A stretch of DNA of 64,000 nucleotides from the NCBI RefSeq assembly GCF_003073135.1, contig NZ_PGDQ01000011.1:1-64000 (forward strand), given 5' to 3'. The position numbers were made by a program, and so were the translations under genes. How positions within the stretch are numbered: the stretch's first letter is position 1; each line of letters opens with the position of its first letter. Of the stretch, positions 33,334-61,572 are shown one piece after another. The notes below the pieces were generated by a model. The model was not told the origin of the DNA and did no database searches. It saw nothing but the letters and a program-made list of their open reading frames with translations. The stretch is from Euzebya rosea (GTDB taxonomy: Bacteria; Actinomycetota; Nitriliruptoria; Euzebyales; Euzebyaceae).

Positions 33334-34410
33334 TCATTCGTCCCAGCGACGTTCCAGCGGGCTGATGGTCGTGCTGCGCAGGTCCGACACCATGTTCTCC
33401 CACAGGACCTCGTGGATGGCGACCACGGCCCCGGAGTCCAGCGTCCGCGTCGCGAAGGCGTGGAAGCTCGTGCTGTCCTCGGGGATGGCGTCGCCGGGGG
33501 TGATGGTGCCGGGGACCAGGCGGGCCCGGATGCCGTCGTCGTCCAGCAGGTGCTGGGTCGAGAGCGTGGCGAGGGCGGCGCCGAGGTTGTTGGCCTGCAC
33601 GGGGATCTCGCCGGCCTCCCAGTCGGTCCCGGGGGTGCGTGCGGCGGCCAGGCGATCGGCGGGGGTGGGGGTGTCCTCCGGGTCGACGATCGCCAGGAGC
33701 GCGGCCACGTCCCGCAGCGCCTCGTCGAGGACGACCTCGGCACGTTCGGCCCCGACCCGGTCGGTCAGCGCTCGGCCGAACGGGCCGACCACCGCGGCGA
33801 CCGAGGTGACCACGGCGTCCATGAAGTCCCCGCCCCGGATGCCGTCGTCGGCCACGGCCGGTCCCCACTCGCGCACGCCCGACGCCTGGTGGGCGATCAC
33901 GAGGCGGGCTGCGGCCGTCACGTCGTCACCGTCCAGCGGTGCGAGCATGCCGTCGAAGGTGCCCTCGAACACGTCGTCGGTCAGGCCGGTGTCGTTCGGG
34001 GTCGCCGCACGACGGATGGCCGGGCCCAGGGCGTCCAGCACGAGGAGCACCGTGTCGGGGTCGGCGTCGCGAGCGGCCCCGGTCCCCGCACCTGCCGCGG
34101 TCAGCAACGGGGTCGCCAGGGACGGGTCGGTGGACAGGCCGGCCACGACTCCTGCCACCGATTCCGGGGCGACGTCGGACTCCAGCAGCGCCCGCCAGGA
34201 CTCGGTGGGGTCGACGGCGTCCAGCAGCAGTGACCGGGCCGCGGCCGGGTCTTCCGCGAGGACCTCGACCACATCTGCGGAGTCCTCGGCCGCCTCGGCG
34301 AGCCCCGCCCGCGTCGCAACATCGACCAGATCGGGCGCGGCCGTGCAGGCCACCAACGTCGCGGCGAGCAGGGCCGCGAGGAGGACGCGGTGGACGACAC
34401 CCCAGGTCAC
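33334..34410 (-). CDS. Lipoprotein of the WXG/EspC-like cassette
   Basis: The 358-residue product has a lipoprotein signal peptide with lipobox LVAC (Cys22), so it should be anchored to the outer face of the membrane. The mature part is mainly helical and acidic, without a family I can name. Its start GTG overlaps the stop of the large WXG protein gene by four bases (GTGA), so the two are made together. Some segments (helical, Asp/Ala-rich, for example DDVFEGTFDGMLAPLDGDDVT) resemble the middle of the upstream protein. A role as immunity-like or surface partner of that protein is possible but unproven. Confidence 0.75.
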   Translation of the reverse strand: MTWGVVHRVLLAALLAATLVACTAAPDLVDVATRAGLAEAAEDSADVVEVLAEDPAAARSLLLDAVDPTESWRALLESDVAPESVAGVVAGLSTDPSLATPLLTAAGAGTGAARDADPDTVLLVLDALGPAIRRAATPNDTGLTDDVFEGTFDGMLAPLDGDDVTAAARLVIAHQASGVREWGPAVADDGIRGGDFMDAVVTSVAAVVGPFGRALTDRVGAERAEVVLDEALRDVAALLAIVDPEDTPTPADRLAAARTPGTDWEAGEIPVQANNLGAALATLSTQHLLDDDGIRARLVPGTITPGDAIPEDSTSFHAFATRTLDSGAVVAIHEVLWENMVSDLRSTTISPLERRWDE

Positions 34411-36593
34411 GTGCCGGCCTCGACGGCGTCGAGGATGTCGTTGAAGAAGGTTTCGTAGGTGTGCTCGTTGACGACGGCCACCTGCCCGTTGCCGACGTCG
34501 ATGACCAGCCCGGGGTCGGTCCCGGACGGCACGTCGCCGTCATCGACCAGCGTCACCGCGTTGGTGTCGAGCATGTGCCCGAGCGCCTCGGGGTTGTGCA
34601 GCAGCAGCGGCAACATCTCGTTGACGATAACGGTCGTCTGCTGGTGGACCGAAGGCGCCGGCACCTGGTCCGGGGCGACGGCGTCGGCGACCTCCTCGGC
34701 GATCCACGTCGTCAGGCGCTTCGTGACCTCGCGGGCCACCACCTTGGCCACCGCACCCGACGGGCCGGCCAGGCCGATCACGGTGCTGGCGAGGCCGGCG
34801 CCGGTGGTGAACGCCGAGGTGATCGCGGCGCGGGCTTCCTCCACCGACAGCTCGTTGGCCTCCAGCGCGTGCTGCAGCGGGTTGAGCCAGTCGGCCAGCT
34901 CGTTCTTCAGCAGGTCCGACAGCGCGGTGTCGTCGGGGATGTCGTCGAGGCCCAGCGCGGCCGCGTCGGCGACGGCGGCGCTGATCACGAGATCGGTCAG
35001 CACCTGTGCATCGGGGCCGTCGAGCCCGTCCAGCAGGTTGGTGAACAGGGCGGTCACGTCGGCGTGGGTCAGGTCGCTGCTGGGCAGGGCGAGGTCGTCG
35101 ATGATCTCGGCGAGGTGTGGCTGGAGGAGCGCGGTCAGGGCCAGGTTGATGTCGAGGTGGCCGGCCCCGTCCCCGGCGATGGTCCCCGCCAACGCCTCGG
35201 CCACGGCGAGGGCGTCACCGTTGCTCGTGTGCAGGGCCGCGACGAGGACGGCGATGACCCCTTCGTCCACGCCGTGGGCGTAGGGGTCGAGGTCGAGCAG
35301 CAGCCTGACCCGCTCGGCGAGCTGGTCGGCGTCACCGGGGTCGAGGTAGGCCCGGACGGCGTCGGGATCGCTGGACAACGCCGTCAGCACGACCGCCAGG
35401 TGCTCACCGAAGCCCATGCTGGGGAAGAACTCGTTGCGGGCCGGGATGAGGAAGAAGTCCCGGTCGGGCAGGACCTCCTCGGCGATGGCCACGAGCACGT
35501 CGGTGCCCAGGCCGGCGACGGTGGCGAGGATCACGGCGGTGAACGGACCGTTGTCCTCGACGGTCGCCACGAGGGTCTGGCGTCCGGCCGCGCTGTGGGA
35601 CGCCGCGCCGATCATGGACAGGATCGCCTCGGCGAGGTCACCGTGGTCCGCCGCATCCCGGTAGCGCCCGAGGTACTCCAGGCTGGTGAGGGAGGCGGCG
35701 ACCCCGCCGGTCCCGAGCGCCTCGACGACGGCGCCGGCCGCAGCCTCGTGTCGGGCCAGCGCCTCGAGCATGCGTTCGGTGGCACGCAGCGCGTCGTCGG
35801 TCAGGTCGTGGTCGGGATCGAGCAGCTCCCCCTGGACGTGCAGCAGCAGCTCACCGAGCTCCGACGGGTCGATGATGCCGTCCCTGCCGGCGGCATCGAA
35901 GCCCGGGATCAGGTCGTCTGCGACGGCCGCGGCGACCGCGACCCCGAACGGCAGCAGGTCCGGCGTCGGGGGGATCGCCGCCCGCAGCCGCTGGGCCACG
36001 GCCATCGCGGCGGCCTCGTGCTCCTCCAGCAGCGCGGCCGCCTCACCCTTCAGGCGGGCCGCCTCGGCTTCGCACTCCGCGATGCCGGCATCGATCTCCG
36101 CCAGCCGTTCGGCGGCACGTTCGACCGCCCGGCGGGCGCTGTCGGTCGAGCCGTCCTCGTCGTCGCGCGCGTCGCGGAGTGCGTCACGGGCGCTCGCCAG
36201 CGCCTGCACCGCGGCCGGTCGTGCCTGCACCAGGGCGAGCCGTCGATCCTCGTTGGCCTCGGCCAGGTCGAGCAGGACGTCGGCGCGGGCCTGCATGCCC
36301 TCGACCGTCGCGGCCCAGTCGGCCAGCACCCCTGACACCGCCGTCCACGCCTCGCCCTGGGCGGCCACCATCGGCGGGGTGGTGGCGAGGGTCCGAAGGA
36401 ACCCGTCGGCGCTGTCCCCGCTCCAGTCGGAGGTGCCGACCGCGAGCCCCAGCCCGTCCACGTCGGCCGCCAGGTCGGTGCTGGACGTGGTCAGGTCGTC
36501 GACGCCCGCACGCATGTACTTCAGCACCTCGATGTCCCCGGGTGCCGGGTCGTTGCCGCCCAGGAGCGTGAAGTCCTTCCCTCGTCCGGCCAC
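34407..36593 (-). CDS. Large WXG-domain protein, candidate type VII secretion substrate
   Basis: The 728-residue product begins with a helical domain containing the WXG turn SDWSGDSADGFL (about residue 56), followed by long helices, typical of WXG100-like or T7SS-signal N-termini. A coiled-coil segment (about 120-190: RRAVERAAERLAEIDAGIAECEAEAARLK) leads into a large all-helical Ala/Leu/Asp-rich body (about 200-720) with no recognised catalytic motif or toxin domain. No signal peptide is present. The GTG start lies eight bases after the stop of an EspC-like gene. The cassette order EspC-like, WXG protein, lipoprotein suggests a secreted effector or envelope complex. No EccC/EccB-type secretion genes are in this window. 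Confidence 0.75.
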   Translation of the reverse strand: MAGRGKDFTLLGGNDPAPGDIEVLKYMRAGVDDLTTSSTDLAADVDGLGLAVGTSDWSGDSADGFLRTLATTPPMVAAQGEAWTAVSGVLADWAATVEGMQARADVLLDLAEANEDRRLALVQARPAAVQALASARDALRDARDDEDGSTDSARRAVERAAERLAEIDAGIAECEAEAARLKGEAAALLEEHEAAAMAVAQRLRAAIPPTPDLLPFGVAVAAAVADDLIPGFDAAGRDGIIDPSELGELLLHVQGELLDPDHDLTDDALRATERMLEALARHEAAAGAVVEALGTGGVAASLTSLEYLGRYRDAADHGDLAEAILSMIGAASHSAAGRQTLVATVEDNGPFTAVILATVAGLGTDVLVAIAEEVLPDRDFFLIPARNEFFPSMGFGEHLAVVLTALSSDPDAVRAYLDPGDADQLAERVRLLLDLDPYAHGVDEGVIAVLVAALHTSNGDALAVAEALAGTIAGDGAGHLDINLALTALLQPHLAEIIDDLALPSSDLTHADVTALFTNLLDGLDGPDAQVLTDLVISAAVADAAALGLDDIPDDTALSDLLKNELADWLNPLQHALEANELSVEEARAAITSAFTTGAGLASTVIGLAGPSGAVAKVVAREVTKRLTTWIAEEVADAVAPDQVPAPSVHQQTTVIVNEMLPLLLHNPEALGHMLDTNAVTLVDDGDVPSGTDPGLVIDVGNGQVAVVNEHTYETFFNDILDAVEAGT

Positions 36594-57954: not shown

Positions 57955-59412
57955 TCAGCCCGGCAGGACGGCTCCGACGGTGTCGGCGTTGGCACCGGCC
58001 CAGTCCCCGACGGCCGACCGGCCCGCCCATTCCCTCAGGTCGATGACCTCCATCGGCTGTGCGGCATCGGGGTCCTGTCCGGACGCGGCCGGATCGGTCA
58101 ACGAGAAGGCGCCGAGCCGCCGAACGGACATGTACGCCGCCGACGACGGGGCCGACTCGTCGTCAGGACGAGGGCCCTCGACCAGCGCCTGATAGGCCGC
58201 TTCGTTCCTGACGGCGTCCCTTGGCACCCAACGGTCCATCCAGGCCACTGTGTAGTAGGCCGCGAGGGCCTCGCCTTAGCGGGTAGCCGGTCCGTGGTAG
58301 GCCACCTGTGACCACTCGAGGTGCGTGCCCGCACGAATGACGAGGGTGTAGGTGTCGATGCCTGCGGCCGTCCATGCATCGTGCGCGACCAGCTTCTCGT
58401 GGGGATCGGGGGCAGTTGGCGACGGTGTCGGCGACAGGAAGTAGCCATCGGCTGCCTGGTTCATGCCGGGCACGACCGGTACGTAGTCCGTGGTCCCCAG
58501 CTGGTCCCAGCCGACGACGGCGCGGATCGGATAGGACTCGCCGTGGCAGTCGGGCACGTCGAGGTAGCGGGTGGACTCGTCGGAGCACTGCTGCACCACG
58601 GTGACCGCCGAGGCCCCGAGCGAGTGACCGGCGATGCCGATGTTCTCCCCGTCCAGGACGGCCCATGCCGGGTTGACCCAGTCCATGCGCTCGCCGTCGG
58701 AACGAGCTTCCTGGGACGCGACGTCGTCGGCGGTCCACGTGGCGGGCACGTAGGGGTGCTCCGGAGTGGACAGGAAGAACCGCATCGCATCGATCGTGCC
58801 CTGCACGAAGTTGAACGACTGCTGGAAGGGCACGCCCTCGGCGGTCGGCAGTGCACTGCCGGGGGCGTGGCCGAACGTCTCGGACTGCCCCTGCCCCTGC
58901 ACGTCGTAGGTCATGACCACGTATCCAGCAGCGCTCAGCGCTCGCGCGGCCCACCAGTACATCTGGTTCGACCCCTGGATCGACCCGGTCGTGATCACCA
59001 CGCCCGGGCGAGGCCCCGGCAGCTCGCTGCCCCAGATGTGCCCGTACAGCTTGGCCCCCGTCTGGCTGACGAACGCGATCTCGCGGGGGGTGACGTCGAA
59101 GTAGTCCTCCGCGTTCCCCACACCCCACGTGGACATGTACTGGGATGCCCCCACGTAGGCACGGCCGTACCGCGCGTCCGCGAGCTGATGACCCTGTGCC
59201 CGTGCGAGTGAGTCGGCCGAGGCGGAGACGAACGCCTCGCTGTAGGCCGGTGTGGTCAGCTGGTAGAGCTGCATGCCGCGGCCACGTGTCAGGTTGTCGC
59301 CTTCGTGCGACCGGTACTCCGGATCGGTGTAGTCGTCAGCGGCGGCCGCTGGAGCGGCCATCACCACCGCGAGGACGAGGCAGAGGAACAGGCGGATCGA
59401 TGGACGTCGCAC
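57955..59412 (-). pseudogene. Secreted alpha/beta hydrolase split by an in-frame TAA
   Basis: Two reading blocks in the same frame, 58276-59412 (378 residues plus stop) and 57955-58275 (106 codons plus stop), make one hydrolase of 485 residues interrupted by a single TAA at 58276-58278. The first block has a signal peptide (ending AAAADD), the nucleophile elbow IAGHSLGASAV and the catalytic-His region RAGTHLEW. The second continues without shift as GEALAAYYTVAWMDRWV, the conserved C-terminal helix of such enzymes. A TAC (Tyr) to TAA change would explain it (ATR-Y-GEALAAYY). GTG 59412 has AAGGAG upstream. The truncated protein keeps the apparent triad but loses 106 residues. Confidence 0.82.
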
Positions 59413-59534: not shown

Positions 59535-60104
59535 TCAGGCAGGCAGCGTGAGCAGTGCCCGGTGGAGATCACGGGCGAGCTCGAGGTCCGGCTCGTGGCT
59601 GTGCAGCAGGTCGGCGAAGATCATCGACTCGCCGATGCGGACGAACATGTAGGCCAACCGATCGGTGTCGCGGGGCAGCTCGAAGCCACCGTCCCGGGCG
59701 GTCGCGTCCATCAGGGCCGCCCACGAGGCGACCGACGCCGCATGCACGCCACCGACCTCGGTGAACAGGACCCGGAAGGCCGTCTCCGGATCGTTGCTGA
59801 CCAGCTGGCGCAGCGGCCTGAACGCCACGACGTCGCTGTTCATGCGGTACGCCGCCTGCACGATGCGTTCCACCGACGGGGGGTGCTCGGCCGACGCGGC
59901 CTCGACCGCCTGCGACTGGGTCACGGCCGCCAGGTCGGCCACGATCCGCCCGAGCAGGCGATCCCGGCTGCCGACGACCCGGTAGAGGGTGGCCCGGCCG
60001 ACGATCAGCTCCTCGGCCAGCGCCTTCATGTCCACGTCGCCGCTGGCCATGAACTGGCGACGTGCGGCGATGTAGGCGTCGGAGTACGAGATGACCCTGC
60101 TCAT
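59535..60104 (-). CDS. TetR-family transcriptional regulator (QsdR-like)
   Basis: The 189-residue product has an N-terminal helix-turn-helix (about 12-50: YIAARRQFMASGDVDMKALAEELIVGRATLYRVVGSRDRLL, spread over two helices) of the QsdR type and a helical ligand domain. I chose ATG 60104 rather than the longer reading because family members start close to this point. Its gene is divergent from the gamma-glutamyltransferase-like gene and upstream of the broken hydrolase, so it may regulate either. Ligand unknown. Confidence 0.87.
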   Translation of the reverse strand: MSRVISYSDAYIAARRQFMASGDVDMKALAEELIVGRATLYRVVGSRDRLLGRIVADLAAVTQSQAVEAASAEHPPSVERIVQAAYRMNSDVVAFRPLRQLVSNDPETAFRVLFTEVGGVHAASVASWAALMDATARDGGFELPRDTDRLAYMFVRIGESMIFADLLHSHEPDLELARDLHRALLTLPA

Positions 60105-60141
60105 CAGCACCGTGTCTACCACCCGATGAGGGCACACGGGC

Positions 60142-60157
60142 AAGGCCGGTTAGCCTT
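60142..60157. promoter_or_regulatory. Operator-like AAGGC-N6-GCCTT at the GGT-like promoter
   Basis: The 5-bp inverted repeat overlaps TAGCCT (60151-60156), the likely -10 of the plus-strand gene, which starts nine bases later at 60166. TetR binding here would block that gene. Confidence 0.4.
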
Positions 60158-60165
60158 CCCCGGCG

Positions 60166-61572
60166 ATGACGTCGCCGCTCGCCCGCCCCGCAGCAGGCCC
60201 CACCGCCTCCTCGGCGGCGGGTGTCGGCGTCGCGGCGCACTCCCCGGCGACCGCGGAGGCCGGCATGGCGCTGCTGGACGCCGGCGGGACCGCGGCCGAC
60301 GCCGCGGTGGGCATGACGCTGGCTGCCTGCGTGGTCGAACCGTTCGTCGTCTCGTTGTTGTCGGGGCTGCACGGCATCCATGTCGACACCGACGGGACGA
60401 CCCGGGCCGTTGACGGGTTCGTCGACGTGCCCGCCGTCCCGTCCGGCGGGCGTCGGGCGGAGACCACGATCGACTTCGGCGGCGCTCGCGTGCCCTACAC
60501 CATCGGTGGCGCGACCTTCGGCACGCCGGGCCTGGTCGCCGGGTGCTGGCACCTCCATCGACGCTTCGGCCGCCTGCCGTGGGCCGAGGTGGTGGCGCCG
60601 GCCATCGGCTGGGCCGAGCGAGGGTTCGTGCTGTCCGAGCAGGACGAGTCGTTGCTGCACATGCTCGAGCCCGTCATGACGATCGGGGTGGGTCGCGAGG
60701 TCTTCTGCGTCGGGGACCGCATGCGGGTGGCGGGCGAGCGGGTACGCATCCCCGACCTCGCCGACGCGCTGCGGCAGATCGCCGAGGAGGGTGGGCCGAC
60801 GCTCTACGAGGGTCCCATGTCACGCGAGCTGGCCACCTTCGCCGCGGAGGCGGGTGCGCTCGTGACCGCCGAGGACCTGGCGGCCTGCACCGCGGTGGAG
60901 CACACGCCACCGACGGTGCGGCTCGGCGGCTGGCAGGTGCGCAGCCGTCGGGGCCTGTCACCCCTCACTGACTGGGTCGCCCGGCTGGACGCCAGCGACG
61001 GCCCCCACGCCGCACGGCTGGCCCTGGCCCAGTCGGCGACCCCACCGAAGGCGCTGGGCACGACGTCCCTTGCCGCGACCGACGCCGAGGGCCGCGCCTG
61101 CGCGATCACCGCAAGCCTCGGCCTGGGCACCGGCGACTGGTTCCGTGGCAGCCAGCTGAACTCGATGCTCGGCGAGGTCGACCTGCTGGTCGGCGGGCTG
61201 CGGCCCCGGACCCGGATGGGCAGCATGATGGCGCCGACCGCGATCGTCTCGCCGACGGGAGCGGCGACGGTCCTCGGGGCGGCCGGCGGCTCCCGCATCC
61301 CCAGCGCCATGCTCAGGACGATCGACGGGATCGTGCTCGGCGAGCTCGACGCGACCACGGCCGTCGACCTGCCCCGTCTGCATCGTCTGGGAGATGTTGT
61401 CCACGTCGAACCGCACCTGCGGGAGGAGGACGAAGCCGCCCTGGTCGCCGCGGGGTTCACCGTGCAGCGCTGGACGTCGCGCCACCACTTCTTCGGTGGG
61501 GTCAGCGTCGCCGGCGCTGCCGGCACGCAGGGCGACCCACGGCGGGGCGGCGTCGGGCTGGCCCATCGGTGA
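60166..61572 (+). CDS. Gamma-glutamyltransferase family protein
   Basis: The 468-residue product has the GGT (Ntn hydrolase) pattern: VAAHSPATAEAGMALLDAGGTAADAAVGMTLAACVVEP at the start, GGATFGTPGLVAGCWHLHRRFGRLPW in the middle, and the small-subunit start GTTSLAATDAEGRACAIT, where Thr in TTS is the likely autoprocessing nucleophile. Classical enzymes have TTHFS and are about 550 residues, so this is a shorter divergent member that may lack normal glutathione activity. No signal peptide is seen, so it is probably cytoplasmic. The transcript is likely leaderless or nearly so. Confidence 0.86.
   Translation: MTSPLARPAAGPTASSAAGVGVAAHSPATAEAGMALLDAGGTAADAAVGMTLAACVVEPFVVSLLSGLHGIHVDTDGTTRAVDGFVDVPAVPSGGRRAETTIDFGGARVPYTIGGATFGTPGLVAGCWHLHRRFGRLPWAEVVAPAIGWAERGFVLSEQDESLLHMLEPVMTIGVGREVFCVGDRMRVAGERVRIPDLADALRQIAEEGGPTLYEGPMSRELATFAAEAGALVTAEDLAACTAVEHTPPTVRLGGWQVRSRRGLSPLTDWVARLDASDGPHAARLALAQSATPPKALGTTSLAATDAEGRACAITASLGLGTGDWFRGSQLNSMLGEVDLLVGGLRPRTRMGSMMAPTAIVSPTGAATVLGAAGGSRIPSAMLRTIDGIVLGELDATTAVDLPRLHRLGDVVHVEPHLREEDEAALVAAGFTVQRWTSRHHFFGGVSVAGAAGTQGDPRRGGVGLAHR

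Follow-up and report, generated by a model that had tools for sequence, protein, structure and literature searches.

Does the single in-frame TAA in a hydrolase gene of Euzebya rosea mark a gene that has been broken, a shorter gene that works, a stop that is read through, or a base that was read wrongly? The gene occupies positions 57955-59412 (- strand) of the window, the 64,000-nucleotide stretch of DNA that was analysed. The window lies on contig C11 (218 kb) of a 5.5-Mb draft assembly in 40 contigs. Three other genomes of the genus (G001, G002 and G003) were used for comparison, of which G003 is complete (two contigs, 6.4 Mb).

Reading frame, orthologue and paralogues

The region of the window is syntenic in G003, mostly at 86-88% DNA identity. 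The G003 orthologue of the hydrolase gene (G003:C1:561026-562477) is syntenic, intact and free of stops, and aligned gap-free with all 1458 bases of the interrupted gene (86% DNA and 90% protein identity). Both genes share the final TGA. The interrupted gene has 485 codons with one internal TAA at codon 379 (58276-58278, - strand), where the orthologue has TAC. A second copy of the gene, 51% identical, is intact both in the source genome and in G003 and carries Tyr (TAC) at the same site in each. This shared TAC, present in the orthologue and the two paralogues alike, bears out the earlier note, which had traced the TAA to a single change in a Tyr codon. A TGA seemingly inside the G003 paralogue was rejected as a lesion, being the normal end of that gene. 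G001 holds only a distant relative of the hydrolase (38%), and a search of G002 found no relative of it.

The open reading frame 5' of the TAA (58276-59412, - strand) starts with GTG at 59412 and encodes 378 residues with the hydrolase core. The part 3' of the TAA (57955-58275, - strand) encodes the final helix of the core together with a C-terminal lobe and would stay untranslated unless the stop were read through. The same frame remains open there for exactly 106 codons, to the TGA at 57955-57957, just as first described. Open frame as evidence by itself was rejected: the DNA is GC-rich and 14% of base-shuffled versions of the tail were likewise without a stop, so the openness of this stretch proves little. 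At the level of sequence, the interruption of the gene is settled by orthology and not by the openness of the frame. Apart from the TAA, no lesion was found in the gene (no indel and no second stop relative to G003). A scan for promoters and terminators found nothing.

Fold, catalytic residues and the part behind the stop

The protein scored below the gathering cut-offs of both Pfam families that it resembled (PF12740 PETase, 20.5 bits, cut-off 28; PF12146 Hydrolase_4, 19.0 bits, cut-off 27). At E 0.01 or better, Hydrolase_4 was matched by 21 of 23 family members and PETase by 15 of 23. Sequence searches of NCBIfam and the PDB gave no informative relative. Modelled at a mean pLDDT of 84.8, the structure of the G003 orthologue shows an alpha/beta-hydrolase core; among solved structures, Foldseek matched it best to PETases and cutinases (E of about 1e-9 to 1e-8, with 3.7e-9 for PETase), at 12-19% identity and a TM-score of 0.32-0.37 on the query. 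Across an alignment of 24 sequences, Ser264 (in GHSLG), Asp303 and His364 never vary. Residue 322 lies where the next strand after Asp303 ends, is acidic throughout the same alignment (13 D, 11 E; Asp322 here) and stands at the commoner position of the catalytic acid in this fold. The protein thus has the alpha/beta-hydrolase fold, and its nucleophile Ser, acid and His follow one another in the order of that fold. It shares with PETases, cutinases and S33-type alpha/beta-hydrolases a common core, the GHSLG nucleophile elbow and a late catalytic His; it differs from PETase in a long N-terminal helical part and a C-terminal lobe that have no PETase match, and it falls short of both curated cut-offs. 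A hydrophobic N-terminal helix is a putative signal peptide, and the enzyme is likely secreted.

All four residues (Ser264, Asp303, Asp322 and His364) lie 5' of the TAA. It had been noted from the outset that the N-terminal product retains the serine and the apparent catalytic His, and on that ground three outcomes had been offered: a working short form, a fresh pseudogene or a readthrough product. A secreted 378-residue enzyme that works with its catalytic residues would fit the position of Ser264, Asp303, Asp322 and His364 before the stop. The core of the truncated product was also modelled with a mean pLDDT of 86.5, although how stable a truncated protein is cannot be read from an AlphaFold model.

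What the stop removes speaks against such a short form. Residues 380-395 make up the last core helix after the catalytic His (pLDDT about 92-95 in the G003 model) and are absent from the truncated product; behind them the model has another helix, strands and a disordered terminus. Helix 380-395 is common to every homologue that can be read at this point. Of 24 aligned rows, 23 have W391 and 22 have S429; the remaining rows have gaps there. All homologues with sequence past the site continue; their ends lie behind the C-terminal lobe or are cut off by the contig edge. Whether orthologues end at the position of the stop had been proposed as a check; among the homologues found, none ends at position 379. 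The continuation is therefore typical of the family, as first proposed, with the lost part kept in homologues and two of its residues nearly invariant. Of the three outcomes, the pseudogene gained and the short form lost ground, since it would lack a helix of the core and residues that hardly vary; we regard a working short enzyme as improbable.

Sequence conservation and the structure model together point to a likely loss of function. The favoured explanation, which we hold to be likely, is a recent nonsense mutation that probably inactivated the secreted alpha/beta-hydrolase and left the sequenced strain with a young pseudogene. A recent substitution would have turned a Tyr codon into TAA in an otherwise intact gene, and translation would end after 378 residues. 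Deprived of its C-terminal lobe and the final helix of the core, the product would probably be unstable or inactive; some of the enzyme's role may be taken over by the 51%-identical paralogue, which is intact and lies elsewhere in the genome.

Selection, age of the stop and broken genes on the contig

dN/dS was calculated by the method of Nei and Gojobori between the hydrolase gene and its G003 orthologue, with a bootstrap interval on the ratio of the values after and before the stop. dN/dS was 0.081 for residues 31-378 versus 0.159 for residues 380-485, a ratio after/before of 2.0 (95% interval 0.9-4.7). For the intact paralogue pair, the corresponding values were 0.166 before and 0.128 after the site (ratio 0.77). 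Because the interval spans 0.9-4.7, relaxed selection after the stop is possible at most. The comparison with G003 indicates that the downstream part is under purifying selection; since it carries neither an indel nor a second stop, this segment must have stayed constrained through most of the two species' divergence. A downstream part still under such selection means either that the disruption is recent or that the TAA is a sequence error. Dating of the TAA by polarising the substitutions of the tail with the paralogues was dropped, as 14 of 16 gave no polarity.

To gauge how often genes are broken, codon usage served to call genes along the entire 218-kb contig and the corresponding 232 kb of G003, which gave 111 orthologue pairs (44,444 codons). 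The hydrolase gene has the only internal stop on the source-genome side of these pairs. Beyond the window, near position 135460 of the contig, a gene that corresponds to a 508-aa G003 gene is distributed over two frames and looks frameshifted, and is a candidate for a second broken gene on the contig. On the G003 side of the pairs there are a split gene, an internal stop and a further stop close to the end of a gene. Broken genes thus number about one or two per hundred in each genome, an ordinary rate. TAA is rare as a terminator, ending 3 of the 153 genes called on the contig, and one of these three is probably the codon-379 site itself. Apparent internal stops in other open reading frames of the window were rejected: they disappeared when codon usage guided the gene calls, being antisense shadow frames or stretches 5' of the true start. 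A 728-aa protein encoded at 34407-36593 (- strand) of the window is intact here and lies in two frames in the syntenic region of G003; it matches a T7SS secretion-signal domain weakly, the longer 832-aa open reading frame scoring 26 bits (cut-off 27).

These counts bear on the main rival, an error of sequencing or assembly, in which case a sense codon stands at this site in the organism and the gene is unbroken. An isolated internal stop in a gene that is otherwise clean, with a constrained downstream part, in a draft of this kind, is what such an error would leave. The gene shows no further sign of poor quality, however, and the sister genome has broken genes at a similar frequency. Single-base consensus errors that yield a stop would also be expected only rarely in well-covered drafts, and we consider an error unlikely.

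Readthrough of the TAA, programmed or simply efficient, that gives the full-length enzyme would likewise agree with an intact downstream frame under purifying selection. The stop is absent from the sister gene, however, and so is not conserved; a recent mutation explains the same pattern, and no other orthologue pair has an internal stop on the source-genome side of the contig. Readthrough is accordingly rated as very improbable. That the stop is real and the gene not dead, whether through a functional short enzyme or a full one made by readthrough, is given only a small chance. The fresh disruption suggested by the earlier note remains the favoured reading, on the strength of an intact G003 orthologue with TAC and a constrained tail without further lesion.

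Neighbouring genes and known parallels

The upstream neighbour on the same strand (59535-60143, - strand) encodes a TetR-type regulator (TetR_C_36), which is intact, is 96% identical in G003 and is separated from the hydrolase gene by 122 bases. It had been suggested that this regulator may control the broken gene. G001 has an orthologue of the regulator (69%; L069 6880-7446, - strand, equal to G001:C14:36882-37448) that is adjoined by unrelated genes and stands without a hydrolase, which argues against a fixed pair of regulator and target and leaves the suggestion unsupported. The link between the two genes is adjacency in two close species and nothing more. Divergent from the TetR gene, a gamma-glutamyltranspeptidase-like protein of 468 aa is encoded at 60166-61572 (+ strand) of the window; a TPM-domain protein is also encoded among the neighbours.

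For annotation, the 378-aa open reading frame is to be labelled an interrupted gene rather than a short hydrolase that is complete; nor is the organism to be credited with the hydrolase enzyme unchecked. A freshly broken gene copy is an ordinary event in bacterial genomes and is of little general importance.

Two marks of a pseudogene were found at this locus: an intact orthologue at the same place in a close relative (G003, 90% identical) and the loss of a conserved part of the protein (helix 380-395, W391 and S429). Nonsense pseudogenes of bacteria are well documented (for example in the surveys PMC522871 and PMC2916853). Young examples resemble the hydrolase gene in having one disabling substitution, an intact orthologue in the closest relative and a constrained remainder, and no difference between them and the present gene is evident.
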